Below, piece after piece: positions 10,248 through 57,000 of a DNA stretch of 64,000 nt. Each line of letters begins with the position of its first letter. Positions within the stretch are counted from its first letter, which is position 1. Below the pieces are notes generated by a model, which saw nothing but the letters and a program-made list of their open reading frames with translations, did not search any database and was not told the origin of the DNA. The position numbers and the translations under genes are program-made. Source of the stretch: Conoideocrella luteorostrata (taxonomy: Eukaryota > Ascomycota > Sordariomycetes > Hypocreales > Clavicipitaceae); the NCBI GenBank assembly GCA_032433595.1, contig JASWJB010000114.1, positions 54,151 through 118,150 on the forward strand, written 5' to 3'.

Positions 10248-10388
10248 TGAGATCCATAGATTTCGACGCGTCGAGGCCAAGTTTCAATCCACCCAGATGC
10301 TTGGTCACTTTAATGTCATATTTGTGCTAGAGAGAGGTGCAAATAACTTTATGAAGCAACATATGACATGTTTAAACCTATTATTATA

Positions 10389-10757: not shown

Positions 10758-10765
10758 TTATTATA

Positions 10766-20755: not shown

Positions 20756-23700
20756 ATGACACGAGAGGCTTTGATGCCAGCACAACAACAGTCACCAAAC
20801 ACACAAGCAAACAGCCAGTCAGCTTGGCTGCTTGCCAACATGGACGGCCATGCACATGCGGATGCACTTACATATGGATATGGCTGTGGCCATGGCTATG
20901 CACGATCTCACCCGCGCCGCGCTCACCCTCTCTCACACTCGCAGACGCCCGATGAGCTTCCATTGGTTCCGCCGCTGAACCCGAGCCGCCTGCGAAGCTC
21001 CTCCTCGCCTTTGGCCACCCGCGAGCAACAGCAGCAGCAACAACAACTACAACTACATCTACATCTACAACACTCTGACCTCAGAACACCCGCTGCCCCG
21101 AGATTGCTGCACAGAGAAAGCAAGCTATCTGATTTATTTGAAGACTTGAGCACTGCCCACCGAGAATTGGAAGGATACTTGAACCGCATCTCCATTGGGC
21201 CCGTGGTGCATCCACCTCGGGCTTCCAGTCTGGCGGCTTCCAGCCTGGCGGCATACGACCTTGATGCAGATTCCCAATACGACACATATACTATTGCATC
21301 TTCGCCTTCCTCTTCGCCCGTCTCGGTCGTTTCTCATTCGGCCAGCACGGCAACCTGCGCCAGCAGCGCCAACATAGAAAACTCCTGGCTAAAGACATCG
21401 CCGTCGCCATCGCCTCCGCTATCGCCGTCTCCGTCTCCGTCGCCTTCACCGACACCGTCAGCATCGGCGTCATCGCAACCAGAGCTGGGCTCAGATTCGG
21501 AGTCTGAACCAGAGCCTGAACCAGCAGAACCAGAGTCAGAATCGCCCTCTCCCCAAAAACCCAGAGTTAGTAGCTATGACGAGGATATGCTTACCAGTAT
21601 GACTGTCGACGCGGCGGCCGCTCTCATACTCTCGTCCACTCAGGAAGACTCACGGCCGTCCTCACCTTTGCACTCGCACTCGCTCGCTCCATCAAGCACC
21701 ACCGCCTCGCCCAGACCACAGCCTAAGAGCAATGGTAACACCGCAGCCAATGCCCAGCAGCAGCTGCTAGAAAACCTATTGTTGTCGACCTCAAAGGTCG
21801 GTAGGGTGTGCCTGGTCTCTCCACGGGCAGGTCCGTTTGAGGGTCAGTTCGTCGCACTGATCACCAACGCGGCCGTGCATGTACCCAACAATGAGCACAT
21901 CACATTAATAGACGACTCTGAGCATGAAAGCGCCAGAAAGCTGATACATACATTGAGAACGGCTGTGGCCGAGTGGGGGTCTGAGTCTCGTCCGCCCGAT
22001 GTGTGGGTTATGCTGAAGTCCATGGCCATGGACTCGGAGAACAGGCCGGATGCGAGAAAAGTCCAGACTTGGGTTCAGAATTTGGATGAGGCGAGGGAGG
22101 CTAAGATCATGGGCATGCAAGTGAATAAGCACCGCAGGGCTGGTGGTGGTGGTGGTCGCGGTGGCGACGGCCGGAAAGGACGAATGGAAACGCCACCGAG
22201 ACCTGCGCGGCCTGATTCCTTGGTGAAGCCAATTACTGGAAACAGGTTCTACAGCTACCAGGGTGGTCATGATGATGAGTTGGAACTAATTGACAGCCCC
22301 AAGGAGGAGGAGGAGGAGGATTACTATCCTCTGGCCGTCATGCAGCAGCTCTTTTTCAGGACCTCCATGAATCCAACTGTTGAGATGGCGTCTGGAACCG
22401 GGGAAGAATATCGTTTCAGCCAGAGTATATTGTTGAACATCAAAGGAGATGTTCATTTGGCCGATATCGAAGCTGCTGTCAGCGTTTTGGTATCCAGACA
22501 CTCGATGCTCCGGGCCCGTTTCCGGCTCACGAGCCAAGGGTGGGCACAGGTCATTGCTGCAGAGTCAAGTCGCGCATATAGATTTGAGCACAAGTACATG
22601 AACGACGATGATGACCTGTTGGCTTGCATTGATGAAGCACAAACATCTCTCAACGTGTTCAAGGGACCAGTCTTCGCTGTCAAGCACATCCGAAATGCCA
22701 AAAATGAACAGCTTCTATATCTAGTAGCACATCACTTAGTTGTTGACTTGAAATCATGGCAAATCCTGCTGCACGACTTGGACGAGCTGCTCCGCGAGGG
22801 AACCCTAATTTCTGAGCCATCTATGCCATTCATATACTGGACAGACTACCAAAGCTACGAAAATAGCCAGAGACTGTTTGATCCTACGCTCCCATTCGAA
22901 ATTGGGCCGGCGAACCTGGGATACTGGGGTCTCGAGGGCCAGTCAAACATGTACGGGGATACGGTACACGTCAAATTTTCTCTGCCCCAGACAGCAGCCG
23001 CTTCGCTGCGAAAGAGATGTAACAATGTTTTCCGAACCGAATCGGCAGATATATTCCTCGCAGCCCTGCTGCATTCTTTCCAACAGACTTTCCCAGACCG
23101 AAACTCCCCATCCGTCTGGAAACAAGAACACGGCCGTGACGCTCGCAACAGCGACTTCAATATCGAACAGACTGTTGGGTGGTTCACCTCTCTTAGCCCC
23201 ATTAGTGCTCCCGTTTCTGCCAACTCTGACATGGTGCATCTAATCAAGACGATGAAAGACACGCGAAAAACAGCTCCCTCCAGCAGTGCGGCTTTCTTCC
23301 AGTCCAAATTTTCCACAGACAGCATGCCTGCAACCTCAATACCTCTCGAGGTCATGTTCAGCTGTCTCGAAACCCTTGACCAACTCCAGCGGGATAATGG
23401 CATCTTGGAACCAACTGCCGCCCCGGATCGTGAAGTTCGCTCACTTGCCTCTGACATTGGGCCTGCAATCGGACGGCTGGCCCTGATTGAGGTATCAGTC
23501 GGTGTGGATGATCACGGGGCCAGGATAGAAATACTGTATAATGCCAACTCGAAGCACCAAGATCGCATAGCATCGTGGATTAAAAAATTCGAGAGTTCCA
23601 TCCTGGAAATCATCTCCCGTTTAAGTTCCATGAAGCCCGAGCTCACACTCTCTGATGTACCTCTCCTTGAGACCTCGTACGATAGACTGTCCAAGTTGAC

Positions 23701-26700
23701 GGAAAAGCGTCTCATCGACATCGGTATCAATGACGTTCATAACATTGAAACCATATATCCAGTCGAACCCGCCCTGCAGGAGGTTCTAATTGCGCAGGCT
23801 CGCGACGCCAACTGCTTTCACGTCAGCCGGACATATGAGCTTATGAGTCAAGATGGGTCTCTGGCTGATCAGGGCAAGCTCTGTGCTGCCTGGGAAACAC
23901 TTGTCGCCACGCATAGTGTCTTGAGGAGTATCTTCATCGACAGCCTTTCTGAAAAGGGGCTTTTTGATCAGGTCGTCTTGAAGAAAATATCGCCTGCTAT
24001 GCTTTTCATTGATTCCAACGACCCAAAGGAGACACTTTCGTCGCTACCACCGATGAAAGTATCACCGTCACAACCCAGGCACAGACTTTCTGTGAGCCGA
24101 TCGAACAAGGTGACCTTTCTGAGATTTGATTGCAGCCAGAACTTGTGCGATGTGAGTATTTTGGCGTTTCTTGCCCGGAAATTTTTCTTCAACGTGCTAA
24201 CTGCAAGCTAGATGATCGCTATTCAAAACTTGGTGACACAGCTGAGACAGTTGTATATGGATAAGAGATTGACGATTGCTGAACCTCTCCCTCCGCGGAA
24301 ACAGCGTCATATTGCAGCCCTTGATGCCCCTCGCTGTGTTGATATATGGAAGGCCAACTTGAGCGGCGCAACGCCATGCATCTTTCCCCATCTTGCCATC
24401 AAGGACCAGGGACGTCTCGCATCTCGAGGAATCAGTCTCGACATCAGTCGTTACCAACTATCCTCATTTTGCTCAGAGAATGAGCTGAAAATAACAACGG
24501 TGATCCAACTGGCATGGGCTTTCGTTTTGCGTACGTATGTAGGTGAAGACCGTGTTGTCTTCGGCTACCAACAATCTGGACGAGACGAGGTCCTGATGCC
24601 AGACACGCCACATTACGTGGGGAGTTTGGCAGCCATCATCCCATGCATGGTTGATTTCTCTCCCACTTGCACTGTGCTTGACGTACTGTTGAATCTGGAG
24701 AGGGTGTGTCGGGACTCCAAGACGACTGAAATCCCAACTCTAGCTGAGATTGAGCACTCTCTTGGCATCCAGGACCAGCGCCTCTTCAATACTTGCATCA
24801 CTTGCCAGGACGTGTACGATACCATCTTGACTGATTCTGATTCACTGGACAACAGCGGCTGGGAACCTGTCCTTCTTTCCAATTCCGTAGATGGCAACTG
24901 TGATTTGTCGCTCTGTGTGACACTCCGCGACGACCGCATTCAAGCAGATGTCAGCTATGCATGCCTCTCCCCGGACCAACTCCACAACGTCATAAATACT
25001 TTTCAACGCGCGCTGCAGATCATCATAAACACACCAGGGCAGCCACTTTCACAAGCCGACTTGTTCACAGAGCACGACTTCCAGCAGATTATGAACCCCG
25101 ATTGGGAACCGGATCAAACAGACACCAAGATCTCGGCATGTCTGCACAAGTTGATATGGAGACAATGCCGAGCTCGACCATACGCAACAGCTATCTATGC
25201 ATGGGACGGCGAGCTTTCTTACGAGCAAGTTGAAGCCAATGTCACAAAACTCGCCACTTATCTCGTCAATCGTGGTGTCGGGCCCGGCGTCTTGGTGCCG
25301 ATCGTCTTGGAGAAGAGCCGGTGGTCACCAGTCATCATGCTGGCTGTTCTGCAGGCTGGCGGGTGCTTCGTTTGCCTCGACGCTCAAGACATGGCTATGG
25401 TCGAGGCCATGATTCGCCAGATTGAACCACAGCTCGTGGTTGTGACCGAAGGGGCTTGGAAGCACGTCAGCCAGTTCATCAGGAGTTGTGTTCTCATCAA
25501 CGAAACATTTCTTTCCTCTTTGCCGCCGCAAATCACCGTATTCGAGAAGGATCCCCATCCACAGCAAGCGGCCTGCGCTTTTCTGGCACCAGGAACCCAA
25601 CGACCAAAGGGTGTCTTCTTCACACACGAGTCTCTCTGCTCTATTTTGACTGAGCAAGGGCCTGCGTTGAAGATCCACAGCAACAGCAGAGTGCTTCAGC
25701 TGTCCGCCTACACGGTTGATGTGGCACTTGTGGAAATTTTAGGCACAATGCTCCATGGCGGCTGTGTTTGCATCCCTTCAGCATTGGAAAGAGTGAATGA
25801 CTTGGAAGGCACACTGGCTAGGATGGATATAACATGGACTTATATGACGACGGTCTTGTCGCGAAAGATCAACCCTTCTACCGTACCAAATCTCCAGACC
25901 ATCTGTTTCCGGACCAGGACACTCGACGAGGATACATTCAAGCCGTGGCTGGGAAATAGGGACGTTCTTCTTGCATATGGCGCGCCGGAGGTTTGTCCAT
26001 TGGCTATCTCCGTGTTCAGCATCTCTCAAGAGAGTGACACGAACATTATTGCCCCGCCAATGCTGGGCCGATTTCTCATTCTCAACCCCGAAGACCCCAA
26101 GAAGCTTATGCCTTTTGGCGCTGTGGGCGAATTGGCGATTGACAGCCCCATCATCACCCCTCACAAGTATGTTCACGGCAACCCTCTTGTCGACCCTGCC
26201 GTATTCGACAACAACCCCCACGGTCATAGAAAATGGCGGTATTTGCGAACTGGTCATCGCGTACGGTATCTGGACCGTGGCCATCTCCGCTTCCTCGACA
26301 CCATGCGGGATGAGGTCGGAGCCAACGGGTCACCAGCGTTGACTGCCGTCTTGGAAAAACAGATTCGAGAATGCCTCGGGGGTGATGTTGATGTTGCAGT
26401 GGAGCCCATCACCACAAACGAGACAATCAACTCGCTGGCAGCGTTCCTGGAATTCGGCGATGGCGAGTTTGTCGGACCATCTGAGCTGGACAAGCTGAGT
26501 GTGCAGATGAGATCCAAGCTTGCGGCCGCGAAATGGCTTGCAGAAACCTCCATGGCCCAAAAGGCCAAACTGGGCAAGGCGGCTTCACCTCATTGTGCCC
26601 CGACAATCTTCATTCCCATTCGAAGATTCCCGCTGTCCACTTCGCTGAAGACCAACAGACGCAAGCTGCAGAAGATGGCCTCTCCGTTCTCGTACACCGA

Positions 26701-29317
26701 GCTACTGGATCTGGCAAACGTGCCTTTCAGCAGCCAACCCTACTTCACGGGCATCCAAAGCAAGCCACTGCCTCTAACGCAGACTGAGGAGTCGATGCGT
26801 CTCATCTGGGCGGCGGTTCTGCACGCCATGGTGGCTGACATTAGAACCACGGACAGCTTCTTCAACGCCGGTGGTGATCGTCTTCTTGCAATGAGAATGG
26901 TTTTGTCATGTCGCCAGAATGGCTACAACGTATCCATCAATGACGTCCTCAACGGTGCAACACTGACGGAAATATGTCAGTCTCTAGAAATTGGAGAGCA
27001 TCAACATCATCATCCTAATCAACCTACCAAGCCATCCAAGACTAGGAGCTCCCCTAAACCCAGCGCAATCGCCCACAAGCTACCAGAGGGCGCCGACCAT
27101 GGCTTTGTCAAGCTTATTGTCGCACCACAGCTTGAAATCCCATGGAACGACGTTCTCGACGTTTCCGAAGCATCATCTCACCAGCTACATTGTCTCGAAC
27201 CAAGTCTGTACGGGTCGAGAAGCGATGTCCGTTGCCTTGTCATCAACTTCAACGGAGCTCTTCGACACCAACGACTCCAGGATGCCTGCGAGGCGCTGAC
27301 ACGATTGCATCCCACTCTGCGAACCGCCTTTGTGGTGCACGACTGCAACTTATTCCAGGTGGCCATCGACTCGTTCCGCGCAGACTTTGACTACAAGTCT
27401 GTTGCGGCATCGTCTCTCGACAAGGAGGCGCATCACGCCGTGAAGCGTTACCAGAAGGAGGCACTACAGCTTCGAAAGCCGGCCACGAAATTCACCTTTC
27501 TAGATGCCGGACAGCAGGGAGGAAGCCTCATAATCCGCTTCAGCTACGCCCAAGTCAGCGAATCTTCACTGCCAAGACTTGTCCAAGACTTCGTCAAGCT
27601 GTACGAACACCCCGCTACTGAACTCAAGCGAACCACCTTCTTCGACTATACACGTGCCTTGAGGGGTGCCCGCTACGATGACAGCATGTTCTACTGGAAG
27701 AAACGCCTCGAAAAGGCCAAGATGACGCAAATTGTGCCACAGTCAAAACCTCTCCCGCCCGCGTCCGAAGTGAAGACCATGAAGGAACACGTCAGGATTT
27801 CGCCGCTGAACGAATTCAGTATCACTTTTGACAGTGTCCTGAAGGCAGCGTGGGCCACCGTCCTGGCCACCTTATCCGGCAAGCCCGACGTGGTGTTCGG
27901 CGAGGTCGTTGAGGGTCGTCGCCTCAAGCTCGAAACAAGCGTGGATGTCTCATCCATTGCCGGCCCCATGGAGAACATTGTTCCCATTCGGGTGCGTTTC
28001 CCTATTGTGAACAGCTCGCCCTTGCAGGTTCTCCAGCTCATCCAGCGGGACAGTGCGACTTCGCTGCCCTACGAAGCTATGGGTGCGCAGAAGATTGTGC
28101 ATGAATGCACAAACTGGGCAAATTGGTCGAGGTTCAGCACTGCCGTGAGGCACAGATCGCAGGTGCCCGTGGATGGAACCACTACGCTGAACATTGATAA
28201 CACCACGTTTACGTATGATCTCGTCCAGCCACAGGTTCGAGATGTTCCCGATCTGTTCGCCCACTCGACCATGATAGCACCCGACAAAGTATGCCTCACG
28301 ATCGAATACTCGCCGGACCGCGTGCCAGAACAATTCGCCGAGACGGCAATGGGTCTTCTTGTCGCCTCGGTCGAAACCCTAGCCTGCTACGACACCATCA
28401 GTCAGCCAATCCTCCAGCCCTCAAGCGACTATGAGGCTCTCCAGCCACGCATGCTCCACGAGCAGCCCGAACCGGACGCTTCCGAACCGAGCTGCGCGAA
28501 GTGGTTGTCTGCCGAACAGCGCGACAATCTTCAGCAGTTCCTCATCTCAACGTGGAACGAGATCCTCCACCCAGCCACCCGGGGGCTCTCGGAGCCAGAG
28601 CTGCTGTCGTCCTGCTTCTACGACATCTCCGGCTCCATCTTGCCGGCGTATCTCTTCGCCGAGCGCTTCAACACTGACCTCCGTAAAGTCGAAATCGAGG
28701 GCATTCACACCGTGCGCGTCACCGCCGTGGAACTCATCTCCACACCCACCATAACTGGCCAAATGGCCCTAATTACCCGAAAAATGGAAGCTGCCGGCGT
28801 CCTCTACAAGCCCGGCCGCAAGAAGCCCGTCGTGGGCAGTTTTCACGCAGGCTTCCCCCCAAGCAAGAATGGTGGCAATGCCTCTTCAAACTGGACGCTC
28901 CTATCCAAGACCAAAGGTCTTCGTCGGTTCCGCCACGGCAACAACAACAGCAGTCACGGCTCCATGAGGGACTTTTCCAACAAGGCTGGCGACTGGATGA
29001 AGTCCTGCGTGAACCTCAGCAAGGAGAAGAGCCCCGTCATAGCGGAGGGCAATGTCCGCGAAGACCCAGGCTGGGAGGTCATCGGCCGGGATGGCATCGG
29101 CATGAAGGAAAGCAGGGGCATAGAGACTGTGCCGGAGGCCGCAGTGGAGATTGGTACAAGTGCCGTGGTTGTTGTGCACCATCACCACAGGCACGGACCG
29201 GAAGGAGATATCAGTCCTTTGAGTGGCGAGGAGCCGCCCAAGGATGATTGGAAAGATGAGTCGAGGGATAGGAGTAATTCGATTTCCCCAAGGAGTTGGA
29301 TGGGTGGCAATGCTTAG
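20756..29317 (+). CDS. Divergent NRPS-like megasynthase with E-C-A-T-C-T-like layout
   Basis: Two exons, 20756-24151 and 24212-29317, are joined by a 60-bp intron (donor GTGAGT, branch GCTAAC, acceptor CTAG, phase 0). The protein is 2833 aa, or 2805 if the better-context ATG at 20840 is used. Residues 1-335 are low complexity. Residues 340-455 resemble the small C-terminal subdomain of an adenylation domain (PDVWVMLKSM, RKVQTWVQNL). Residues 523-965 are an epimerization-type domain with HHLVVDLKSW (659-668) and TVGWFT (806-811). Residues 993-1425 are condensation-like, with DCSQNLC where HHxxxDG belongs. Residues 1445-1950 are adenylation-like, with A3 reduced to APGTQRPKG, A7 to LRTGHRV and A8 unrecognisable, though the A10 lysine region SLKTNRRKL persists. 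The carrier at 2013-2029 reads GGDR instead of GGDS. A second condensation-like domain (2110-2532) has SYAQVSESSL in place of SHAQYDGxSL. A last carrier-like segment (2575-2618) also lacks the serine, and a charged tail follows. The frame is fully intact. I cannot name a product. Confidence 0.85.
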
Positions 29318-35435: not shown

Positions 35436-35518
35436 TATTATAAGGGAAGCGTTGTGCAGCACCCCTTTTGTACCCCGCTAACAGAGTAATTTGCGTTGTA
35501 ACCTTATGCAGCGGTTTA

Positions 35519-35811
35519 TATATCTCCTTGATGACCGTAAAGCATCACTTTTCGACTCGAACCCACAGGCACCCCTGTTAACACCGACGACCTATTCCGT
35601 AGAGTGCCCTTAATCGGCGCCGCTCTGCACCAAAGACCCATCGGGGGTGCCAGACGTACAATGTAGCTCTTTATCAATTAGCAAATGACTAGGACTTCTA
35701 TCATAGTGTAAATCAGCAGGCAGAAGAAGTACCCTTGAAGGCGCTGCTTCTAATTTGCTATGGATCCCCGTCATCATAAAAGTGATGCTTTACAGTCACC
35801 AACGAGATATA
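35519..35811. mobile_element. Nested TIR element inside MITE copy 2, with tRNA-like box
   Basis: About 293 bp absent from copy 1 are bounded by inverted repeats of roughly 34 bp with four mismatches. The ends are TATATCTC...GTAAAGCATCACTTTT on the left and its near-complement on the right (AAAAGTGATGCTTTAC...GAGATATA). The insertion point is a TA-rich tract, and a TA target duplication in the Tc1/mariner manner fits, but the AT-rich context prevents proof. On the minus strand, about 35550-35645, it contains a tRNA-like A box (TGGTGCAGAGCGG) and B box (GGTTCGAGTC), plus an 8-bp inverted pair GGCACCCC/GGGGTGCC. The T-stem is not paired, so it is not a working tRNA. It has no ORF of note. Confidence 0.7.
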
Positions 35812-36075
35812 TTTTTTACTCTGTATTTCTACCTTTTTTTAAAAAAAGAATCTTTTTTTACCTTATTATGTGTAATTCTCTTTCGTGGCTTTTACTTAGC
35901 CAGCACACGCTGTGTTGCAAGCTATTGTGCTCTGTACATGCTGAATATATACTGAGTACTGCTGTTTGTAAATTCAGGGTCCAGTTAATGGAAGACTTTG
36001 GGGGCTTAGGAGGCGGCTTATGTAGTAGCCAATTAGCTATGTTTATGGAGTATGACCCCACAAAAAGGGGTGCTG

Positions 36076-36084
36076 TACTCCGTA
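36076..36084. repeat. TACTCCGTA word inserted in a MITE end (filled site)
   Basis: Copy 1 of the MITE reads GTGCTGTACAACGC at this point, whereas copy 2 reads GTGCTGTACTCCGTACAACGC. The 7 extra bases create the word and duplicate the TA. The left inverted repeats of both copies also lack the extra bases, so an insertion in copy 2 is the simpler reading. Confidence 0.85.
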
Positions 36085-36103
36085 CAACGCTTCCCTAATA
36101 TAA

Positions 36104-41082: not shown

Positions 41083-43785
41083 TCTGTCCGTCCATCCCAG
41101 AGCGCATAAATCCTGCTAGATAAAACGAATGCGTCGCAGCGAGTCCCCTGCGTAGCCCTTTGCCTCTCGCCAAGACGAAACCTAACCGTCATTGCATTCC
41201 CCATCCTCCTTGGCAGCACGAGCATTGCACAAAAACAATGCATCTTAAAACTCAATTAGGGCGGCGCGGCTTCTACCTGGATGTTATGCGCTGGAAAGAG
41301 CCGCAGAAGTTGCTTGGTTTTGTTGACTCTATGTGCACATCGGACGAAGGTCAAAGCCACGGAAATCGAGTGTACCGGTCACAAACGATCTGTACGTTGA
41401 GGCGGCCCGCATCGAGCGCATAAAGCAAGGTCATTGCGCTGCCGTGTTTTTAAGGCTATTCATTAGTTATTAGCTAGCCGTGCATCGAGGCCCTCGCGAT
41501 ATGTTCTGCAATAGGGTATAAATAAACACACCTTGTTTCAAGAATGCCAATACAAATGCCAATACAGAGAAGTAGCTAGTACAAACAGCTTGCTCTGTTG
41601 CCGCGTGCTCCCCTCCTCCCCGGTCCTCGAATTCTCACATTCATGGCAAGAAGACACGAAGCAAAGCAGCAGGTAAGCAGGCTTATCCATGCGTTCCCCC
41701 CGGCGCGGAGTGTTGCGACTTGTTGGCAAAGTAAATCACACGATCAAACGCCTGATGGGAGTCAATCTATACACCCCCAGACATGGATGATCCAAGTTCG
41801 TCGACCAAAGAGCCCGTAAGCGTCGGCCAAATTCACGTAAGCAAACAGATCCCCAATTACATCCCACATGAGCTCGCCTCTAAACCAGCCAATTCGTGCT
41901 CGCCTCCCCACGGAGTTTCTTGTACATGAAACATGACGTCGCCCCCACTGCTGGCCATGGACAGTTCATGGCAGCGTTTGTGACGAGCAGCGTTCCATCG
42001 GGCTAACCTCCCTCCCTTCTTCACCTCCCCACGGTATGATGCAACTTATTACCTAAATAGTAATGCTATTCGAGGGTGAAGGGCGAAAGAGGGGGGGCAA
42101 AGGAGGCACTGCTCGGCACTGCTGGCGGGATCGACGAGCTTAATCTGGTCGGCATTGGGAAGCCTTGTACTATGTATGAACGACGCTCTTCGTCCCAATA
42201 TTAACGTCTCTAGGTAGCTAAGCTTATCTTGCAGATTGTCTGTATATTTATGGAGAAGATCATCACGCTTAGTAGATGGACAAATGACGTTAGGACCCAG
42301 CGTGTAATCGTTCAAGTAACTACGGAGTATGCTTTCTCCAACTATGGAATCATTTTTCGTCCACGGCGTTTGGACCAGGGTATTGGCTGAACTGCACCGC
42401 TTTAGCCTCGCAAAGTCATTCTGCTTGGAGTAAAACGGGTAACATGTCCAGGCAATTCATGTATAAGTCTTCTCCTTAGCGGGCTATTGCCAAACCTTGT
42501 ACAAGATGATGCAGACACTCCCAAGATGTTGGCTTTACTTTTGCTCTGCAACTTTTTCTGCCACCTTAAGCCAACCCTGTCATTGTGACGGAGATGCCGA
42601 GCAGAAGCTACACCATGTTCCGAACCGCGCTGTTCCTGGCTAAATGCTCCCATCTCCATTGTAGGCGTTAAATGAAGATAAAATCCTCCGAACAGGAGGA
42701 AATAAAACCGGTGCCTAAATGAACGGACCACGTTCAAGGAGTCGGCGGTGGCCGAAGGATGGAATTTGGCCGATATTCTCACCTTCCCACTCCACACCGA
42801 GCTCCCGCATCCCGGCAAGCTCTACGGAGTACCTAAGTTCATGTTTAGCATTGTGGGGGGTGTAGTAGTTATCGCACCAACAGCAAGCAAGAAACGAAGG
42901 GATATAGACATGCTAAAAAAAAAAAAAAATTAAACTTGGAAGAAGAAGTAAGAAGAAGCAACGGCGTGGTCTCGGCAGGATGCCAGCCCTGCAAGGCTGT
43001 TTCGCGTTGCCGATGCCACAAATGTGGGTGCCAGGTCATCATGCCAATAATATGCCATGTGTGATATGCGTCGTACGACTGCAAAGCTCTATAATGCAGC
43101 ACGGATTAACAGGGTGGCAATGCCATATCAATCTGCAGCTGCAAACCTGCACGCACCTACGGAGTACCGGGAAAGCAAGACGCATGCTGCTGGCAGGATT
43201 TGTTTGGCTCCCTCCCGTCACGAACCCAACGGCCAACATCACGGCCCCGAGGTTGCAATCTGCTGTCCCGTTGGGTCTCTTTCCGAACCCACCAGTCATC
43301 ATCCTTGCCGCACGCCATCGGCAAAGAGACGGACGATGTTACACTTGGGGCTCATTGCCGTTTGCGTCGCACATGCCTGTCACTTTGTGCGACATCATAC
43401 ACGTTGTACGGAGTACACGCACATTATGTAGATAACCGCTGCAGTGATAAGACCGAGCAGAATACGAAATCTTCGGCCGGAGTGCATATCTTCATGTATG
43501 AAGAGATGCTTTCGGGCACGTACGCTGCAATTCTTGGCTGATCCTGTTTGATTTCGCCCAGTAAGGCTACGAGAAGACTGCCCCCCGTCCATTTTTTTTT
43601 CTTGGTGACCAGACTAACTAGTTCGTTACTCTAGCATAACGACCGGAAACTGGCCGACCGCCGACGTTCTTGACAATCTTTGATGCGGCATAAGACAACG
43701 TCACTATCTGCACAGCCCTGCGGTTTCTTTGTGTTGCAGTGGCCGCATGGTGCTCGAGGCGGTGCGAGTGAGTGCACACCGCAAG

Positions 43786-43801
43786 TACTCCGTACTCCGT
43801 A
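43786..43801. repeat. Head-to-tail pair of TACTCCGTA words
   Basis: TACTCCGTACTCCGTA consists of two exact words sharing the central TA. A third word in the opposite orientation lies at 43875-43883. Confidence 0.9.
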
Positions 43802-46800
43802 TGCTAGTCGTAGTTACGTCTTGTATTATTGTACTAAAATGTAAGGAGCACTGTATGTTTAATTTGACGCTGAGTACGGAGTACTGAGCCAACGTCCCCC
43901 ATCTCCTGTCAGTATGTACTCGGAAGTTGGCCTTGGCGGAAAGACGGGCACTGACCGAATAATAAGAACATCAGACCGCCATCTATTCGCCGAAAAAGTC
44001 TCCATTATGAACCGAGACATTTCCGCTTCGTCTGCCGTCTGTGATCCGCAATCCTGCGGCTCTGGCTCCATCACGGCCTCGCATCATCGGAAACACGAAC
44101 CGTATTGTGATGTGATGTGATGTGATGCGATGGCCCCTGGCAGCCTGCCCGTCTGTCCGTCTGCCCGCCGACCCGTCGAAAAAGCCATCTATCCCAGGAC
44201 ACTCGGGCAGCAAGGTATGACTTACAGTATCGACCAACACAAGTCCGTTCATCGCAAGCCTCCTTCTCCCCTGGGGATGGCTGCATTTTAGTCCGGTGTG
44301 CCTTACACAACATGCCCTTGGATTAATTGAAACGGGCTGCAAAGTCCCATGAACCAACAAGGCGAGCATGGTTGTTGCATCTTGAACCAACACATGTCTG
44401 CATATTTTTGTTCTCGTCCTCCCTCTGGTAGCCCCGCATGCATGATGGGTGTCGTACATACATCCATGAGGCAGAAGCCCCAACGATTGGTCTCAGATTG
44501 GTCTCAATAAAAGACAAGGCCACTCTCAGTCCAATTTTAAGTGCTGAGAAACTTGGCCCGTACTCTGCTGCCGTACCGCACCGGGGAATATGCAAGAATC
44601 CCCAATTGGCGTCTGATGTCGATGAATTGATGCCATTGTACACGCAGGGAATGCTAATCTGGTTAGGCGATCGGAATGGCCCCCATTTCACCAGACGCTG
44701 TGTAAGCCCCCATCCCGTGTGGTCGTCCAACAAATTGTTGGGTTGCCCTCGCCACCTTGTGCCCACCGACACCGGTCTACTGAAAAGTTAGCCGTGTGGT
44801 CTGGCAGGGCTGCAGCAGGCAGCAAGTCACGGCCAACTGAGAGACTTGCGACGTCCAACCAACCGACCATCTTGTTCCACAAGCGAGTAGAGTTTGGTCC
44901 ATAGCCCTGCAATAACATGTGAGGGCGCCCGGGTAAAGAAATACGAGAAGCTCTCTCTTGCTCCTTAATCAACCAGGCGCTGGAACCTGTGCGCGGAGGG
45001 ACTCGCGAGTAATTGTCAATCCGCAGGGAGCTCCGGAGCATCTGCAAACGGCAGAATACGAGATCAAAGAGTCAATAAGACCAAGACAGACACCGTAGGC
45101 CGTGTAATACAACATATCGAGTGCATTTGACGGCGTGCTCTTGCCTCGGCGGGCACGGTATCAGTGCATACACAATCCTCAAATAACCCCTCCCCCTGGA
45201 TGGATCCAAGCATCTACACAATCGGACTTCAGATCACAGGGTTACGGCCGAAAAGGCTCAGAAGAGGGGGCAGCGGCGCAAGGCCCAGAGAGAGCAGGAG
45301 CGACCACCATCAGCCCTGACGACCTGTTGCCACAGTCCAGACAGCTCGGGTGTACGGAGCACATACAAGATGGAGTGCGGAACTCCGGTAACTGGATAGT
45401 GTGCGGATAGCATAAGTACTCCGTACATGGCACCTGAGGTAGCTCCTGGACTTGCCCTGAACGTACTTGCTACGGACACGCCACGTAAGTGCATACATAG
45501 TTGGGTCGACCCGCCCGTCCGTGCTCTCTTCCACTAAGGTTCCAGAAGCCTTCCGCATTAGGAATCTAACTGACGCGTCACATTCATGTCCGAATCGCTT
45601 GTCCGCGCACATTTGTGTGTACATGCATAACTGGAGCTTGTTTTGTTTTGTTTGTTTTGCGTTTCTTTTCACTTCTTTCCGGTGGGAGAAGAGCCACGAA
45701 CGGAGAAATATCCAGACATGAGCACTAAATATAGCACCATCCGTGGCTTCTCTCCGCGTACTCATCAATAATTATCATCAGCCTCATCAGATGTTGCGTG
45801 TGTCTTATGGCGCAGCTCATTTCGTATAAGCTGCTCTGCTCTTGCCGTTACATTTCTGCGCTATACTACAACACAAGAGCCCACATGATTATTGGAGAAC
45901 CCACATAAAGAAAGGGACAACTACAACCCACAACGTGCCAGCGTGCTTTGACAACTTCACTCTGCAGATGGTCTATTTGCTAATATCTACTCCGTACTTT
46001 TGAGGCTATGGGGCAACTCCAGCCGCCCACTCGGTGGGTGTGCAGGTAGGTGTGTGAGGTGTCCGTGGCTCCGTAAGCAAATTTTGGCTGATGATACGTA
46101 CGCATATATGCCAAGGCCGTCAATAGCGCAGTTAATTAGTTAGCTTGTTGGACCTGAAATAAGAGAAGTCATGTTGTCCAGTGGACCTTTCTAGCTAATC
46201 CGATATACTATAGAGAAATACGGCCAAATGTCACGTACTAACCAAAAGGACGACCCTCTCCGTAAAACTGCTGCTGCAGCCTTGCCTTCGGAATGCCGAT
46301 CCTCTTCCGCTTTCTTCCCCGCGCTGCAGACATAGCCCTCCCTACGTGATCGTCCAGCTGCGGGATGCGTGAAACGTCTGTAGAGTAACCACGACAAGCT
46401 TGATCTGACCACGGCCTGGTCGCTGTTTGGATCTTCATATCGAATAGCCAAGATCGATATAGGATGCAAGGTTGCTCCCGGCTCGACAAGGCGAAAGTCA
46501 GGTATGGCGAGCCGGCCATTTTGCCACCTGCTACCCCCATCGTCCGAGATAGCCCCGTGAACACTCGGCGAATATGGGATAAAACGTTCCATATCGCCGC
46601 ACTCAAATCGATGCTCGCGCTGCCCCAGGAGAGGAGGGGGAAGGATTAATAACAGGTCTGGAGGGTATTTTATGGCGATCATTACTCAGTCCCTGACACA
46701 CTAACTAACTAATTGATGCCGACATTCAGGCTGTGCCAATGGGGGCAACTTGGAAGGGCCGACCAAAAACCTGCAGCCTGGCCTGGTAGTTCCTTGGCGG

Positions 46801-48494
46801 CATGCTTTCCCAAACGGCAGCTCCCCTGGCAGTTGGGAAGCAATTTGGGGAGGGAGGAACAGGGCCTCAGCGTGACATCGTGGCTCGTCCATAATGTACG
46901 GGAAGGCTAAAGTACGACCCCATAGTTGCCCTGAGAGTGGATGCCGAGGAAGCACGCACTGGCAAATGAGTCTGGGAAGGCCTGGACTAACTAGAGTCCC
47001 AGCTGAATTAGCCTTCCCTTGGAAACGCAGATAATTCCGCACTTGATGATCCGATATTACTGATTCTCGAGTTTCTGGAGGGGAGAGAGACCTGTATGCA
47101 ACAACGCTGCTACGCAAATGCAACCCCCCCCCCTCCTTCTTATTTTCAAAGTTGGTTAGTTTCCCACATAGCTTGAGCACTCATTGGCTGGTCATCAAGG
47201 GGCAGCAGCAGATGGGTTGGTTTCATTTTCTCAGGCCTCCAGGGCTGCATCTAGATCTGGCTGGACATGGGGAACGTCGCGCTCTGCGGAGATTCCAGAC
47301 GCTTCACCAGACAAATCGGAACCCGAACGCACCGTAAGCACCGTGCTTTGGAACCTACGTAGTTTCCTGCCAGGAGGGCAATTCGTTGCGCCCCCTTTTC
47401 TTGGGTTCCCAGCCGGCTGTATCGGCATTACGTAGCAAAGGGACGGAGTGCGGAGTATTGTAATCCGTACAGTCCTGCTATGGCCAGACGAAGGTTTTAT
47501 CACACAGACCCCGACACGACAGCCATTTCAACCGTATTCCCGCCAAGACAATTTAGCCGCTTCATCCAACCGAAGCTTGGGTTTGAAATGTATTCGTAAG
47601 CTCCGGAATGTGGGTGCCGAAGGCTCAAGTCTGGATTATGATCACGTGGTAAGACGAAAGACATCGGTGGTGGAATACAATATCTGGATCTGAGGGGGCG
47701 AGGCGCGAACTCATTCGTCATCTAGAACTGAGCTGACGACGACGGCAACACGACGATTGCCGGAAGCCGTCAGGCACATTTACATTGCTGTTGACTGGCA
47801 GCAAGCAAGCAAGCCAAGCCACCGGCAGTTGCTGCGATTCAACCGCCACAGGGTGCCAAGAGGTGCTACGCGAACATGACCAAGGAAGGATCAAACTCGA
47901 TAATAGCGGCAAAAATCCCAGGAAATGATAGACGGTTGCATGTGGAGAGAATCCCGTTCCTGGTCACCGAAATTGTAATCATTCGGGAGGGCGGCACTAT
48001 TTCACCCTACCCTCTCCTTTCTCACTGCACCTGGAGGCTGGCGTTAACTGAGTGGGAACTCATGGTAGACTGGATTGCCAGAGTACTAACGAACGAACTA
48101 ATAACTGTCCCTGAGGAGGCGCTAACTAATAGACAGCCCGATCCATGCGTGGCAGGCTTACCCAGATTTGCCTTATCGCCGTTGTTCAACGTCACCACAA
48201 ACCAAGACGCGCAGCCGCTTCAGCCGCAAAAAGCCACTTGCCATGGGGAGGGGGGCAACATTTTCTTGTTCCGCGTCTCGCATTCTATTACTCCGTGCCA
48301 AGCGTAAACTAATCAGTCCGTCGCTTAATTATTAGCCTGAGACAACTGACTGCTGCTCGGCGTCTGGCCTATGACATGCTCCGCAATCGTCCCATCTCTT
48401 GGCTGTATGTCATGGTGATCTCGACCCTTAATGCATTTGTAAAGTCAAGAGGTCTGTGTTATGTTGGTATTTGGAAAGGAGCACAATATCCTTT

Positions 48495-48532
48495 ATACAC
48501 ACACACACATATATATATGTATATATATATAT
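48495..48532. repeat. Compound CA/TA dinucleotide repeat
   Basis: A run of AC dinucleotides passes into TA dinucleotides with one interruption, in gene-free sequence. Confidence 0.9.
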
Positions 48533-50067
48533 GTTGTGATTAAATGTATTTTGTATAATAGCCATTTAACTATTCTTCTGCGCGGATTAACTAGGTAGTT
48601 TGATGTTCAATCAAGGACGTAGAATGCCTGCTTTGCCCTGAGGAGTATTTGTGGCAATATGGGTTAGTGGAAAGTAAAGGCGGCATTGTTTAATCCGTGA
48701 AAATGCGTTATTACATGTTGAATTCTCACAGATACATGTACTTTAGCACGTCTTATATGAGATCGACGTACCGTCCCCGAAACCAGAAACCGGAAGCCAG
48801 AAACCATAGCAATATGGAAATGGGACCAGGACGGGGTGCTCGTAGAGATGTGTTGTAACTACTCCATGGTTGGTATATCTCTGCGCGTTTTGCAAAAGCC
48901 TTTCTCGCTCTTTCAACGCAATCTAACTGGGGCAGGTGTCGACCCGCGGCATTTGCCGTTCATTCGCACAGCTTTCTCAGTTGAGGAGGCTTTCAGTTAT
49001 GCCAGTCCTGAAACTCAGCCCCTCAGACAACTTTGGACTGAGTAGTCTGTGGCCAATCCAAGCCAGCCTGGATCTATGTTAAAATGGAGAATGGCTTGTG
49101 GTTGACTCTGCAGTTCAGTTGCGGACGAGGCTTGGCTATTCCCGCGGAAAGTTGTCAGAACGACCACGCCAAGTCGACCCAACAACAATCCACACTCGCA
49201 TTCCCGGCAGTTTGGCACACTCGCGCTGGCGCATTCCGTGGGCCAACTAACCAACATACCCCGGAGTCGTTTAACGAGCTTCCACCATGTGAAGTAACAA
49301 GCGCAGGCCCTTGGTTGGCTTGTTGATCGTGTTGCACAACGGACAGATACGAAAGGAGACCCGCGCTTCCAGTCAATTGTATCCAACAGAGCACCTAATC
49401 TGGACTCAAATCTGACAGATTGACCGTAAAACGCTCTGACGCCGTATTGTACGGAGTACATGGCCAGTGGATATGGTTTCCAGGTGGCAGGCAGGGGGAC
49501 TGACGGGCTTGCCGGACACCCATTGGGAGAAGGTCGTCAAAAGTTGTCAAAGTCAAAGAAAGTCTGGCCCTGTTGTTGGCCTGATCAACCATGAACCATG
49601 TTCAGCCCTTTGGCGAGAATGCACACCAACTGCACTGCAACCCCCACGGCTGACCCCTGAAGCTGTGAGCATTGGTCCTGCAAAGCACAGGCCGGGTCGC
49701 CATACTCCGTACTAGTGCAAGTAACGCAGCGTCTTTTTTTGGTCTGCGTTGGAAGCTAGAACAACAAGTGCGCCCTCGCCCGCCAGACCAGAATTTTCTG
49801 CGCACTCCACACCTCGCCCTACCACGGAGCGGCACCACCTACTCCGTACATTTGATGGGGGACCAATTGAACTTGGAACTTTCGTTAGTTGCTCTCTACA
49901 CCGTCCAATCTTGGTCGTGGCCGAGTTCGGCCGATTCGACGGGTAGTAGAAATTGGGTTATTCCCGTTCTGATGACGACTCAGGGTTCAACGTCGCCGTG
50001 AATTGTTGATGCGCGTTTTGCTGGACCGTCTAGATGCCTGGGCGAATTGCACACGGTGACACATCAA

Positions 50068-50085
50068 TTACGGAGTACTCCGTAA
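50068..50085. repeat. 18-bp palindrome of two words, tail-to-tail
   Basis: TTACGGAGTACTCCGTAA is a perfect palindrome made of TACGGAGTA then TACTCCGTA sharing TA. This is the reverse order to the one at 2438. Confidence 0.9.
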
Positions 50086-51071
50086 CTGGCAAATTGGTAT
50101 GATCATTGAACTGAACCACGTCACTCGCAGAAAGTAAATGCCTTTTCAGGCTTCTCGTCATTTCATAAGCAGGCCGGCGATTTGCCATATGCTCAACTCT
50201 GATGGATGGCACTTCCGCCTTTGGAAGCTTTACAGTACAGTTCTCATCGCGCCCTGGGAATGAGGTCGGCGCTGTGGCTTATGATCAGCGCTCCGATGGT
50301 GGACAAGTGCGAACCATCGATTCAAAGTGGTTACTTCCAACCCCCACAAGGTCTCCTGCACACCCATTTCGATTTGTAACAGACATGTAACGAACATTGA
50401 TATCATGTCTCATCGAGGAGAGAGTGTCGTTGACGTACCCACGTTGTAGCAAAAGCTGAGCACAATCAAACCGATTCGAGAAAACATACGCCATCGCCAT
50501 GGCTGGGTTGCCCTCCCTGTAGCCTCCCTGCCTCTCAAGCTCCATTTGCAGTTGGACCGGTGTTGCTTGAAACCCGAGCAAGTAAAGAGATGAAGGCGTA
50601 GGTGGGGAAAACCTCACATGCAAGTTGTGGAAGTTTGCAAATTCGTCGAGTCAGCGGCCATTTCGAAACCACTTCGCTGAGCTGAGCTGACGCGTGCGAT
50701 GAATACATACTCCGTAGAGTGTCGTTCCTCCACCGGAACACATCTGGGCCAGTGGAGAAAACTCGTCTTGGATGGGTAAACCTCGCCTAGGATGTATTTG
50801 CAGTGGCTGACGACGCAAGTTCGCCTTCTTCGCAGAGCAGCAAGCCGACGTTGCCGACACCTGTCCTCCGTACCGCGTACTAGGTGTGATGTGAAATCCA
50901 GGGCACGCGACATTTTCGTCGAGCCTCCCAACCAAGCCGAGTAGGGCAAGGTTGCCGCCAGGCGAAGTGGTGGAGTGCGCTTGTCACTGTCAGATACGAT
51001 CTCTTAAGACCTTCGACGCCACCGTTTGAAACCTGCGCCACCGTTATCATGCTCTTGAATCTTGCGAAGCA

Positions 51072-51087
51072 TACGGAGTACTCCGTA
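51072..51087. repeat. 16-bp palindrome of two words, tail-to-tail
   Basis: TACGGAGTACTCCGTA has the same arrangement as at 50068. A shorter partial version (CGGAGTACTCCG) occurs near 55459-55470. Confidence 0.9.
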
Positions 51088-54000
51088 CCTAATCGCTAGG
51101 AATCCGCTGGTAGGCCACAGAGTCTGGCTGCCTGTAGCTGCTTTGTTAATTCTTATGAAACCCCTCCACATGTCGCTTCTCTCAAAGTCGGGGCTGACGA
51201 CCCGACAACAACCAACGGTGGGGATACCTGTAGTTGTGTATTACGATTTTAGGGGTGGGCTCTTTCGCTCTCTTGCAATACTCTGGGCGTACGGGCAACA
51301 GTGGTAAGGGAGGGACGGCGAACTTCGGGCGGTCATTAGTTTGTTGATGCCCCATCTCAGTGACACACAGACAGACGGTAAGATAAACCCTTAGCCTGTC
51401 ATTCAGCTCCGAGGCTGCCGTAAACGGGTACCCACAAGGTGACAGACAGTTCACGCTCTCGCTGCGTATCCCAAGTTTGGGGCTTTTCCCGTGACGGCGG
51501 AGATTTGATGCAAGCTGGTGTACGGAGGGAGTATGGAGCAAGATATACGGTATCAGCTGAGGTTGCAATACAATACGAATGCTCCACCAGATCCATGGGA
51601 ATTATAGCCCGGCTAAAAAGTAAAGTGTGTCGGCCCTCTCTTGTGTGTGTTGTTCAGCAGCCAGGCAGTACCGAGCAGCATCGCCTGCATCCCGGACCGC
51701 GCTCGAACGGGATCTGCCGTAAGGAGTACATGGGAGGGACGCTGCCGATAAATATCGTTCATAATTTCTTGCTGTCAATTGAGGCACGATCGACCGTCGC
51801 ATGCAGATGGATATTTGTTGCTTCACTTGCACTGCCTGCCAATAGTTGCTGGGCTACTTACACTCGACCACCTCTTGGGGGTCATCTTGGTCCATCTTGA
51901 GTTGACAAGGCTTGAGGACTATTGGCCAGCTAGTTTGCAAGCTAGCCTAGATCTTGCATATTGAAGCCTGCGCCGCTTTAACTTCCTCGTCCTTGGCATT
52001 TTATCGTCCATAGCACACGCAAGCATTGCAGAGTCTAAACAATGTCTAGCGCAGAAGAATAGATGTTAGCGACATTCGGGGCTGGGAATGAGTGGAATCA
52101 GCTTCGTTTGAATATGCGGGGACGCTGAAGCCGCTTGAAAAATGCTCAAAACTTATGGTGCTGCCGTCCCATGTAGCGAGTTGAGTAACCATCCACTTGA
52201 ATCTTGAATTTGAGGGCGGAGATTTGCTGTTGATCCACTCTAGTGCAAGGTATCAAGCACATCTGACGTAGAGGTTCAGGTGTTTCGCCGTTCCGGCTAT
52301 GCTGGTATGCGTGAAAGCATACTAGTTACTGACTACAATACACATTTGGGCTGGGCCTGCAGTGTGGTTCGGAGCCACCTACCGTAGGGGGTGTGTATAA
52401 GACATCCTTACATGCTCTCATGAGTCGCTATTCGTGAGTTTTGTTCTAGAGATGTCAGTATACTCCGTAATCCATACCCAACGACAAAACTACAAGGAAA
52501 CTGGGATGCGTGACCGTGGAGTGCAGCGCTTGTTTATACCGCTGGCCGCGCCTCGTCCTCCTCCTTTCGATTCAGATCTTCCACACTTTTAATACGAAGA
52601 CTTTTAATACAAGAAGAATGTGTTTTGTAACAATTTACGCAGAGAGGGCTACACGTAATCACTGCGGCTTGAATGGATCCGGGCCTTGGACATGTGCCTT
52701 TTACTCCAGTTCTTCGCAAAGAGTTGTGAAGTAGAGAGCCACTGGCTGTTCCAACGCACAAAAGGTTTGATCTAGATGCGCTATTATTTGCTACATTGGA
52801 TCCAGAGGTTTTCAGCATAAATGACTTTCTGTGGATTTCCCTCATCACTCTGCAACAGCTGGGACGCATACGGTGAATCATTCTGTGATAGACTTTAGCT
52901 GTGACCGACCAAAATCGTTGGTCCGTTGCAAGGGAGTGAGGAAGAATAACATCTCTTCTCAACTCTGCTCAACAGCTCAATGTGGTCTTCCTCACGTTCC
53001 CTCAGCAGGAGTTTTCGGGTCGGACTAAACGGGATAAATGGGACTAGTCATAAGAAATAGTAGCCGCCAGTTATTAATGGACCATTTCAGACGACGAATT
53101 GTAGAGCCTTGTGATCATATGCTGTCACTGAGCTGTTCTCTGTTGCTCGCGAATTGCTCAATGCGACACTGTTGAGGACATGTACTCGGACGAGTTGGGC
53201 TTCGGAGCCGTAAGACGGAGAAACCTTGTCAAAAAGCTGACTCAATACTCCCCAATGACAAGTTTGCCCTTTATTGAACTAGACCCAATCGGATAGGGCG
53301 GAGGGGGGGGGGGGTGGTCTGCAATAGAGAGCAGTGCTAGTTCACAGAAATAGACATAGCCTTACGGCCTTGCGGTGTAGGTCTTTCAGCCACTGAATCA
53401 GAAAATAGTGTGGTTCTACGGAGTTGTTACAGCGTACTCCGCAGACGAAGGTCAACTGGCTTCCAGCAGAGACATCTGCATACGATAGTGTCGGTCAAAT
53501 GGTGGTCTGCCAGTATCCAGTCTATCGGACCAGTCGGCCAGTCAGAAGAAGCAGCTGCACCAACGCCTCCCTTTTTAGACATGGGAAATTTTTCAAATTC
53601 TGATGTCGCATACCATTTCCCGATTTCAGATACCAGAGCCTGAGTCCTGATCGTGGCAAGGGGGGTCCCGACCGGCATATGCGCCTTCGCTGTTGCTGCA
53701 TTCACGCTATGGTGTCTCGTCAGGCGTGAGTGAGTAAGAGGAGTGTAAGCGTGACAAAGAGAAACCGGGCCTCGGGACCGAGGGGAATAATACAGTCAGC
53801 ACCCAGTAGAAGGATGAAATCATCTCCTGCTGATGCGAATATGTCGGTTGTTAGCCACGGGGAAGATGTGATGGCAACAAAAGACTGCAGCCTGAAGCGG
53901 GACAGCTTCAGCTCCACCACTAAGCAATTCCTCCGTATCGTGCAGCCAGCCCGTGCTCTAGCTGGCTGACATCGCGATCTGTTGTGCCTTTACTGATAGG

Positions 54001-57000
54001 TCTTTGATAACACCAGCACGTCGGCAACACTGACATGGACAGGTGGGTTTACCTGCTGGTACTCTCCATGGTTGCTTAGCTCATGTAATATACAAAACAG
54101 CACGAAAAGCCAAGAGTTTGCGTGGGACAGCCGGGCCTGCAGTCTGGCGCTCGGGAACGGTTCACATCCTTTCGCGCGTGATTTCTTTTCCTGCTTAGCC
54201 TCCTGGTCTTGTAGCTGGTCGGTGTTGTGAAAGAGGCAACGCAGTGGTAAACAAGTTAGTTGTTCAATATATTGTTTTCTCAGCAAATTTGGGGGGATTC
54301 ACCAGGTCATGGGTCCGGTTAGACTTCAGGTCGGTCCAGGAAGGCGCAGCCCTTGCGGTACAATATTGGAGTTTGCCCGCTATAAAAGCCAGTTTTTGCA
54401 CAATTGCTGCATAAGTCCTGTCTCGGAGCTCGGTGTGTGCACAACTCAGGCACAACTACGGAGTACGTTGAGAGGATGCAGCACACGCCCCAACTATACT
54501 AGTATTGCCTTCAGCCACTTGAATTCAAAGTGGGGCACCAAGGTAGCGCCCACGAGACGGACGTGCTGCGTAGGGCTGAGTGTTTTGCGGGTCTGGAGGA
54601 GAGCGAGTACGAGTTACGAGGCACGAGGCTGAGGTCTGGGTAAAGGCTGGCACTAAAAATTACGTGAAGCGCACTCCCGGCGACGTGAGATTGGCGCTAG
54701 AACGTACCGGAGGGGGGGCTTCAATTGGCATTGACGGATGATGATGGATTGACTGGCTGCGAATTGCTCGCCAGCATTTCGTCCAAGGGCCGCGCGCCAA
54801 AGCCAACTCCCCAATCGGGTTTTGTCTTTCTGCAGCTGCCATTTCGTTCCGCTGCGGCATAGTGGGCTATGCTCCTAATGAAGCTGGACGCCAAGGTCAG
54901 TCAGCGGCTGAGGTCCAAATGGTTTCTGCAATGAAAACTTGCTTCTTTTCACGGATGAGGATTAGCATGTTCCATTTGCCCATGCATGTTTAATATACTC
55001 CGTAGCGTTGATGGGCAATTGAGCGCCCGTGAGCTCAAGTGCGTATCAGCCAGCCAGAGGCTGAGCATCAACTACCGTGAAACGGTACTTCGACCAGGGA
55101 GGATTCGCTGTCCAGGCCGGCGGGAAAGATTGCAATAGCACCCTAGTCCCCTTGCAATCACTCTATTGGCTCGTTAGTGGCTACGGGTCGCCTAACGAGC
55201 AAGTGCAATTATTCCGGCAGGCAATTCTCGCCGTCTATTAGTACATGGCACCGCGGCGCGACCATCCAGAAACAAGAAAACTGCTACAGCCCTCTTTTGC
55301 AGGTCAGTCAGCAGGTCAGTGGACACGGGGTGCAATCTAAACTCAGCCGAGATTTCGATAGTATGAAACTATGGAGTACGGAGGCAATAGGCATATACAT
55401 CATGGCAAGGTCTATCAATAAACTTGGACGTGGTAAGCCATCGATGCCGAAGAGCGTGCGGAGTACTCCGTAACCCGTATACTCTATCGAATTCAAAGTT
55501 GGCTTTGACTGACGATAGCCAATTGTCTTTGACTCGGGGAGTGGTGTCTGGGAGTTGACAGTTCAAGTGCAAGCAGCCCTAAGCTAATCAACACTATATT
55601 CACACGACCTGCATGCGGCTGAGCAAAGGACGCAGAGGACATTAAGGAGGGCTCTACAGCATATTTGCCTCGGCCCACAAGCTGCGGTGAGCCAACCATG
55701 AAAAGTCCACCATTATACGGAGTATTTCGTGCAGAATTCAACACTGACGAGTTTCTGAATTGATCTGCTCCGCACTCCTTGCTCTTCGAATATGTAGCGA
55801 CACAACACCCGTGGTTTGCGCACGGCTAGCCATACCTTACAGCAGATATAATAGGAGGCATTGTAGCTGTTATTGGGCTTTCTTCGACCCGGTGAAGGGG
55901 CTGTGATAAGCAAAGTGATGCTATAGTCTCGTGCTGTCCCTGTCTCGACTGATTAGGTCCTAGTTACCGTCAGAATTGAGGCTATCCTTTTTAATAGTTC
56001 AACTGCTGAATACGGAGTACAATATGTGCAGATATAAGTCGTCTGCGAGTGGAGTAACACGGGGTTAAAGCCTGTAAAAGAAGATGGGTTTGCGATGACG
56101 TCCAAAAAGAACCACCTTTCCGTCCTATGCCGTGGCTGGAGCGGCCGAACCACGGTTGAGGTTGAAGGACGGCTTTCGATGCTTTGATCCTCACGTTGTT
56201 TCGCAGATGCCCATCTGTGTTGCAATGCGGGTGGTGTGCCCGCTCGGCCACCGTCGCTCCTCAAATCTGAGTGCCATGATAAAAGGTCTTTTTCAAGCCC
56301 CATGTTGAGTTCACTAGCCAGCTTTAGAATATGATAACTAGGTAACTAATCATTTTGACGTGGTGGCAGGAAGGGCGGACGCCATGCCAACGTTATTTCG
56401 GTGCTTGCGATCACCACTGGGCTGGTAGAGCATTCTACAAGAGGATCCACTAGTACTCCGCAGAGTTACGCTGCATACCAATGGGGGAACACTATGACGC
56501 TCGGCGCGAACATAGTTTCTAAAGTATGAGTACTCAATAGATTGGGAGCATCGCTTGGAGCGTCCCTGGCCTCGCACTGCTAACAAGCCGAGCTGATGGC
56601 GTTGACCTGGCTTGGCTGCTTGGCTACTCAGGTGCCCACATGGAGGTTGGGAGGGTGTCCATGAAGGCGAAGCCACATCGCGTGGCAATATCTTGATGAG
56701 GAGGAGCAAGGAAGTCGAGTCGTGCTGCATTTCAGGCCGAGGCTGAAGCAGATGTTCCTGTTTCTCGATGACGACAGCAGGTAGCCGGACAGGCCTGAGC
56801 CAGCCATGCTCATGACACTGTTTTCCACCTTGCCACCTGAATGGCGTGCAACCTGCTTCCCAGCGGATCGGGTCTCCTAATATGAATTACTCCGGGAACT
56901 GTACCACTAGGCCGTGGCCTGACGGGCCCCTCCCACTCTTACCATTACCGAGGACTATGCTCCGTACTGCGTACCACCGAGTCAAATCGCCAGAGTTCAG

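Follow-up and report, generated by a model that had tools for sequence, protein, structure and literature searches.

The closest described counterparts of the sequence reported here are the footprints of Tc1/mariner and pogo elements (impala, Fot1, and Sleeping Beauty among them), which are left at TA targets in the form of a TA, a few fixed bases, and another TA, and which occur in both orientations; for Tc1/mariner excision, the available text of PMC7913693 gives a length of 2-4 bp. The same word has also been reported from other fungi in different contexts. In Aspergillus fumigatus, the target of the Starship Tardis is TACGGAGTAG, and the k-mer CTACGGAGTA lies above the 99.99th percentile in Af293, no insertion origin of this word being proposed in the accessible portion of PMC12153272. 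The motif of SomA in the same species is GTACTCCGTAC (PMC7667024, text available in part), and the ChIP-seq motif of UvCGBP1 in Ustilaginoidea virens is TACGGAGTA (PMC8344781, also available in part).

The nine-letter word TACTCCGTA, located at positions 36076-36084 on the forward strand of the window (the whole stretch of 64,000 nucleotides of Conoideocrella luteorostrata DNA analysed here), resembles each of these systems in some respects and departs from them in others. Being TA-CTCCG-TA, that is, a filled site, it shares with the Tc1/mariner/pogo footprints the TA target, the few fixed bases between two TAs, and the presence of both orientations, with further words of this type, having AC and CAG cores, matching the ends of resident elements. 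On the contrary, its CTCCG core has 5 nt instead of the 2-4 bp given in the available text of PMC7913693, its identical copies number in the thousands while truncated forms show little sign of accumulating, and the part of the genome read contained no element ending in CTCCG. With the Tardis target it has in common the identical 9-bp word and the genome-wide excess, but in the accessible portion of PMC12153272 that word serves a giant element as landing site and direct repeat, and the binding of a factor is the role suggested for it. The SomA and UvCGBP1 motifs match the filled GTAC site exactly, as exemplified by that at 36075-36085 on the forward strand, where the word with its flanks reads GTACTCCGTAC; in the available text they are described as regulatory, whereas the word here is an insertion product, and part of the motif calls of this type may therefore reflect genome-wide abundance. 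The EMSA with a mutant probe, as presented in the available text, argues for real SomA binding in A. fumigatus. Like MITEs, the word is short, dispersed, and has duplicated target bases at its flanks, but it amounts to 7 bp and has no inverted repeats of its own. To our knowledge, such a size is far below that of any MITE. Among the papers listed in literature searches, none described TACTCCGTA as an insertion, and matches to the word in other papers were primers or probes that were set aside.

The window holds 42 exact copies of TACTCCGTA, the number already given in a preliminary description of this DNA, as compared with a mean of 0.13 and a maximum of 1 in 100 dinucleotide shuffles of the window. 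Over the whole assembly (46,424,744 bases, 46.4 Mb, in 620 contigs) there are 13,584 copies, 6871 forward and 6713 reverse, versus 438 (222 forward and 216 reverse) for the control in which the word is read backwards. A 264-kb sample, formed by the window and twenty 10-kb pieces picked by contig number, contained 92 words, and only one of the 92 fell within long open reading frames (stop-to-stop, at least 200 codons), which comprise 2995 of the 12,313 TAs of the sample. Forms with one mismatch were also in surplus, 112 being found in the sample against 34.7 expected, and genome-wide matches with at most one mismatch reached 31,269 against 11,675 for the control; both surpluses suggest that copies are decaying, the change per site under a simple model being roughly 5-9%. 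Regarding the target, 26 of all the words occupy the 840 GTAC sites and 66 the other 11,473 TAs (odds ratio of 5.5). A strong preference for GTAC was nevertheless weakened when isolated words were considered (n = 42, one edge-near word of the 92 being omitted from the count), with GTAC being the target of just 6 of the 42 (14% vs 6.8%); a G preceded the TA in 21 of the same 42 (vs 26%), and this is the firmer target preference of the two. As for the coding content of the window, a 785-residue TFIP11-like protein is encoded at 7890-10247, and its identity amounts to 76% with a protein of Pochonia chlamydosporia and, among the matches listed, to 74-77% with proteins of Epichloe and Claviceps, which places the host within Hypocreales, inside or close to Clavicipitaceae. 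Two long open reading frames, 20756-24211 and 24212-29317, run end to end in one frame with a single stop codon between them and, judging from their motifs, may be parts of one multidomain (NRPS-like) protein.

The site at 36076-36084 lies in the right inverted repeat (36069-36096, forward strand) of one of two MITE copies of the same family present in the window. Copy 1 spans 10388-10758 and copy 2 35443-36096, both on the forward strand. In aligned stretches of 254 and 92 bases they are 83% and 86% alike, respectively, and additional sequence in the middle of copy 2 is left unaligned with copy 1. They differ at their right ends in the way claimed in the preliminary description: copy 1 displays the empty site CTGTACAACGC, with a single TA, at 10742-10752 on the forward strand, and copy 2 reads CTGTACTCCGTACAACGC within its right inverted repeat, which bears the 7-bp insertion. 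The left inverted repeats (10388-10409 and 35443-35465) had been noted as also lacking the extra bases, and the 7 bp are indeed absent from them; as controls, however, they are weak because TGC, not TAC, is found at that spot and there is hence no TA to fill. Across the genome, 11 places fit the site pattern GTGCTGTA-N(0..28)-CAACGCTTC, a count restricted to MITE copies with a TA at the site, which the pattern requires. Nine of these places are MITE right ends, six of them empty with a single TA, one filled with CTCCGTA (copy 2 of the window), and two with other fillings, TA-TG-TA in one case and TA-ACTAGT-TA in the other. The 11 places also include two left ends (L014 and L017), both of which are empty. 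At this MITE site, the filled state is the rare one. The TA-TG-TA filling is found at G000:C230:38096-38116 (L017), and that of TA-ACTAGT-TA, which is open to interpretation as two AC scars, one nested in the other, at G000:C34:29856-29880 (L009).

MITE copy 1, searched against the genome, gave a list of 53 matching stretches, in some cases several pieces of the same copy, and the alignment comprises 30 rows, namely the two window copies, eight copies from the site-pattern search, and 20 fetched ones, with L011, L012, and L018 left out as duplicates. Pairwise gaps with good flanks among these rows gave 45 distinct 7-base segments, as compared with 21 segments of 6 bases and 17 having 8; rotations of the word account for 12 of the 45. 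Such segments are placements, and not all of them represent independent events. The 7 bp were then removed from each of the 20 exact words in the rows (two of them, L009 at 175 and L019 at 37, apparently located in flanking DNA outside the element), and the resulting junction was sought in the other 29 rows. For 15 of the 20 words, one or more of the other rows displayed the predicted single-TA empty junction, versus 20 of 180 control deletions placed at other TAs in the MITE rows; with three or more other rows required, the figures were 10 of the 20 versus 5 of the 180 (Fisher p of about 2e-9 and 2e-8, respectively), the junctions being less telling where placement is AT-rich (L010, L019 at 144, L041, L054, and L057 at 91). 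The filled junction, in turn, was common to at least three other rows for none of the 20 words, and to one or two rows for three of them; intact control sites were common to other rows in 99 of 180 cases. The best case is that of L057, CTTA-TACTCCG-TAGAAT, the empty junction of which is found in 22 of the 29 other rows, and the cleanest eight words are W35427, L043 (two), L049, L057 (248 and 349), L013, and L017. Both orientations occur among the 20 words, a number that compares with the 9.8 expected from the TAs of this family, designated A, at the genome rate.

Considering that (i) deletion of the 7 bp restores junctions found in other rows far more often than control deletions do and (ii) no filled junction is common to three or more other rows, the words are derived insertions. 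Within this MITE family, the word arises as an exact insertion that converts TA into TA-CTCCG-TA, with a net gain of 7 bp and in either orientation, as had been claimed on the basis of the two window copies. A deletion in copy 1, which had been regarded as the less economical option, turns out to be much less so, with six of nine right ends empty and the other words being single-row ones at other sites. For words beyond this MITE family, we infer the same insertion origin. Regarding the MITE itself, the flanks of L019 resemble a target duplication of 9-10 bp (AAGTTAACTA / AAGTTAATTA), and it may therefore be Mutator-like and not TA-targeting.

Two other repeat families were compared. Family B (TGTTGGAA...CCCACA; L021:3690-3930 and L060-L099) is high-copy and solo-LTR-like, with a length of about 205 bp, and its search gave 558 first-look candidates, of which 40 were scored. 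No word was found in 42 copies, whereas 3.8 would be expected for the 39 copies whose ends were countable; the copies were the best-scoring ones, a choice that favours copies without insertions. Family B looks young. In family C, the one insertion detected in 22 copies is an 8-bp variant, TA-CGGGAG-TA (L037:5270-5430). Finally, the word-rich stretch 42000-58000, used as a 16-kb query, matched only five other places, and these over 33-39 bp of one spot, so that its words have no paralogous empty site for comparison.

Words are also found next to each other, sharing their TAs. Within the window, three of them (+,-,-) form nested insertions of both orientations at 2439-2461, two follow in direct order on the forward strand at 43786-43801, and inverted pairs of the form TACGGAGTACTCCGTA occupy 50069-50084 and 51072-51087. 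Genome-wide, TA-sharing pairs comprise 843 direct ones, 368 of the form TACGGAGTACTCCGTA and 255 of the form TACTCCGTACGGAGTA, and their total of 1466 amounts to 8.6 times the 170 predicted for a random placement of words on TAs, insertion being therefore clustered or attracted to existing words. The clean 2:1:1 ratio that random orientation predicts was rejected (chi-square of 50), the TACGGAGTACTCCGTA form fitting the prediction, TACTCCGTACGGAGTA being low, and direct pairs being high.

These observations bear on three further origins of the word. A microsatellite-like 7-bp repeat that expands by slippage or tandem duplication would agree with the direct pairs being somewhat above the 733 expected for random orientation, but the 13,584 words give only 1466 adjacent pairs and, far from being tandem copies of a single orientation, 623 of them are inverted; since tandem slippage makes direct pairs only, it is not the source of the latter, and this origin, contradicted as the main one, is extremely improbable. 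Very improbable as well is that the word is ancestral and was lost from the empty copies through deletion between its two TAs: deletion between such direct repeats does leave a single TA, as observed, but none of the 20 MITE words is common to at least three other rows, empty junctions being the common ones, and independent losses would be required in nearly every copy and at many sites, which contradicts it for the tested words. We also consider it improbable that the word is a transcription-factor site (SomA-like or zinc-cluster) that is frequent because selection creates and keeps it. Such an origin is favoured by the rarity of the word in long open reading frames, as well as by the SomA ChIP motif with its EMSA controls (PMC7667024) and the U. 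virens ChIP-seq motif (PMC8344781), as far as the available text of both papers goes; however, the words are private insertions within MITE copies, which contradicts it as the origin of the tested MITE words, and they stack into arrays and have many one-mismatch forms. Binding and insertion are nonetheless compatible, as a scar can also be bound.

Other micro-words flanked by TAs were counted as well. TA-AC-TA occurs 138 times in the 264-kb sample versus 63 expected, nests with itself and beside CGGAG words (264-kb sample; L015, L120, and L125), and is the lone insertion in MITE row L015, being absent from 26 other rows; TAACTAACTA and TAACTAGTTA occur in the sample 5 and 3 times versus 0.2 and 0.1 expected, respectively. 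TA-CAG-TA was counted 38 times versus 21.5 expected, an excess that is doubtful because its reversed control (CTG) reached 42; the expected numbers of these short AC and CAG words, derived with a third-order Markov model, are approximate. Shortened or doubled forms of the CTCCG word were hardly in excess, with 4 occurrences of TACTCCTA versus 4.1 expected, 9 of TATCCGTA versus 5.2, and none of TACTCCGCGGAGTA; TACTCTA was found 34 times versus 17.3 expected, but its reversed control gave 33. The transposase matches listed were at least 14 for DDE_3 and at least 21 for DDE_1 (35), and six of the eight loci fetched from them had readable TA-flanked ends, with ACGTCG as the terminus of two pogo-like elements and CAGT as that of four Tc1/impala-like ones, so that the AC and CAG cores are the ends of resident elements. 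The search for a transposon with CTCCG termini, suggested by the preliminary description, yielded none among the six readable elements nor in the 346 kb read, which are part of the genome. In 264 kb, TACTCCG lacked the following TA 35 times, and no two continuations were alike in their first 5 bases; in 346 kb, the best of the 117 TACTCCG/CGGAGTA end pairs was a word array with 2/15 mismatches, the next having at least 5.

Our leading reading, to which we give about an even chance, is that TACTCCGTA is an exact TA insertion produced as the excision scar of a TA-targeting cut-and-paste DNA transposon. On excision, such an element would leave five of its terminal bases, CTCCG, or CGGAG when the other end is kept, together with the duplicated TA; it would have few copies and a long history of high activity, or would since have been lost from the genome. 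New events also hit the TAs of older words, building short direct and inverted arrays; the scars would decay through ordinary mutation, and in some fungi they may have been adopted as binding sites or as landing sites of other elements. The main reason for preferring a scar is that the other TA-core-TA words match resident transposon ends. Moreover, the end-joining of two non-complementary 5-nt overhangs would give both orientations, so that finding the word in both is expected for a scar. Considering the excess of AC words alongside DDE_1 matches that are few (at least 21, a lower bound), many scars with few surviving elements would not be unusual in this genome. Several features count against an excision scar: the 5-nt core falls outside the 2-4 bp range; shortened and doubled forms, which sloppy end-joining predicts, are nearly absent; no element ending in CTCCG was found in the part of the genome read; family B is wordless; and adjacent pairs exceed random expectation 8.6-fold with orientations that depart from 2:1:1. 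In addition, as the word is reported from A. fumigatus and U. virens, the parent of the scar would be old and widespread. We know of no such parent ending in CTCCG.

A rather less likely but possible origin is a self-sufficient micro-insertion, in which a precise process would put the 7-bp unit at a TA without a full-length transposon, for example through a domesticated enzyme, or through break repair in which CTCCG is copied from pre-existing words by TA or GTAC microhomology. The uniformity of the 5-nt core, with truncated or double forms hardly in evidence, the lack of a CTCCG-ended element in the part of the genome read, the strong word-beside-word clustering, as the copying of neighbours would give, and the over-representation of the word in the distant A. 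fumigatus, according to the available text on that species, would all be in line with such a process. On the contrary, the match between other TA-core-TA words and resident transposon ends makes a transposon origin simpler, and the search for elements covered a minor part of the genome. Neither an enzyme nor a template for a micro-insertion of this kind is known to us. At that same lower probability, TACTCCGTA might be viewed as a self-propagating 7-bp micro-insertion with a dedicated mechanism, which would operate in this genome and perhaps in filamentous ascomycetes at large.

If the words in the MITEs represent the rest, one genome would contain about 13,600 identical 7-bp insertions, a source of small indels for which no description was found in the literature searched, and strains are predicted to differ in whether single TAs carry exactly CTCCGTA. 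If the copies in other fungi were also born by insertion, genome-wide abundance would have to be taken into account as a check on ChIP motif calls, and regulatory sites may be seeded by a mobile process. Should the micro-insertion be true, no smaller dispersed insertion sequence would be known to us, and ready-made factor binding sites would be scattered by it through intergenic DNA.
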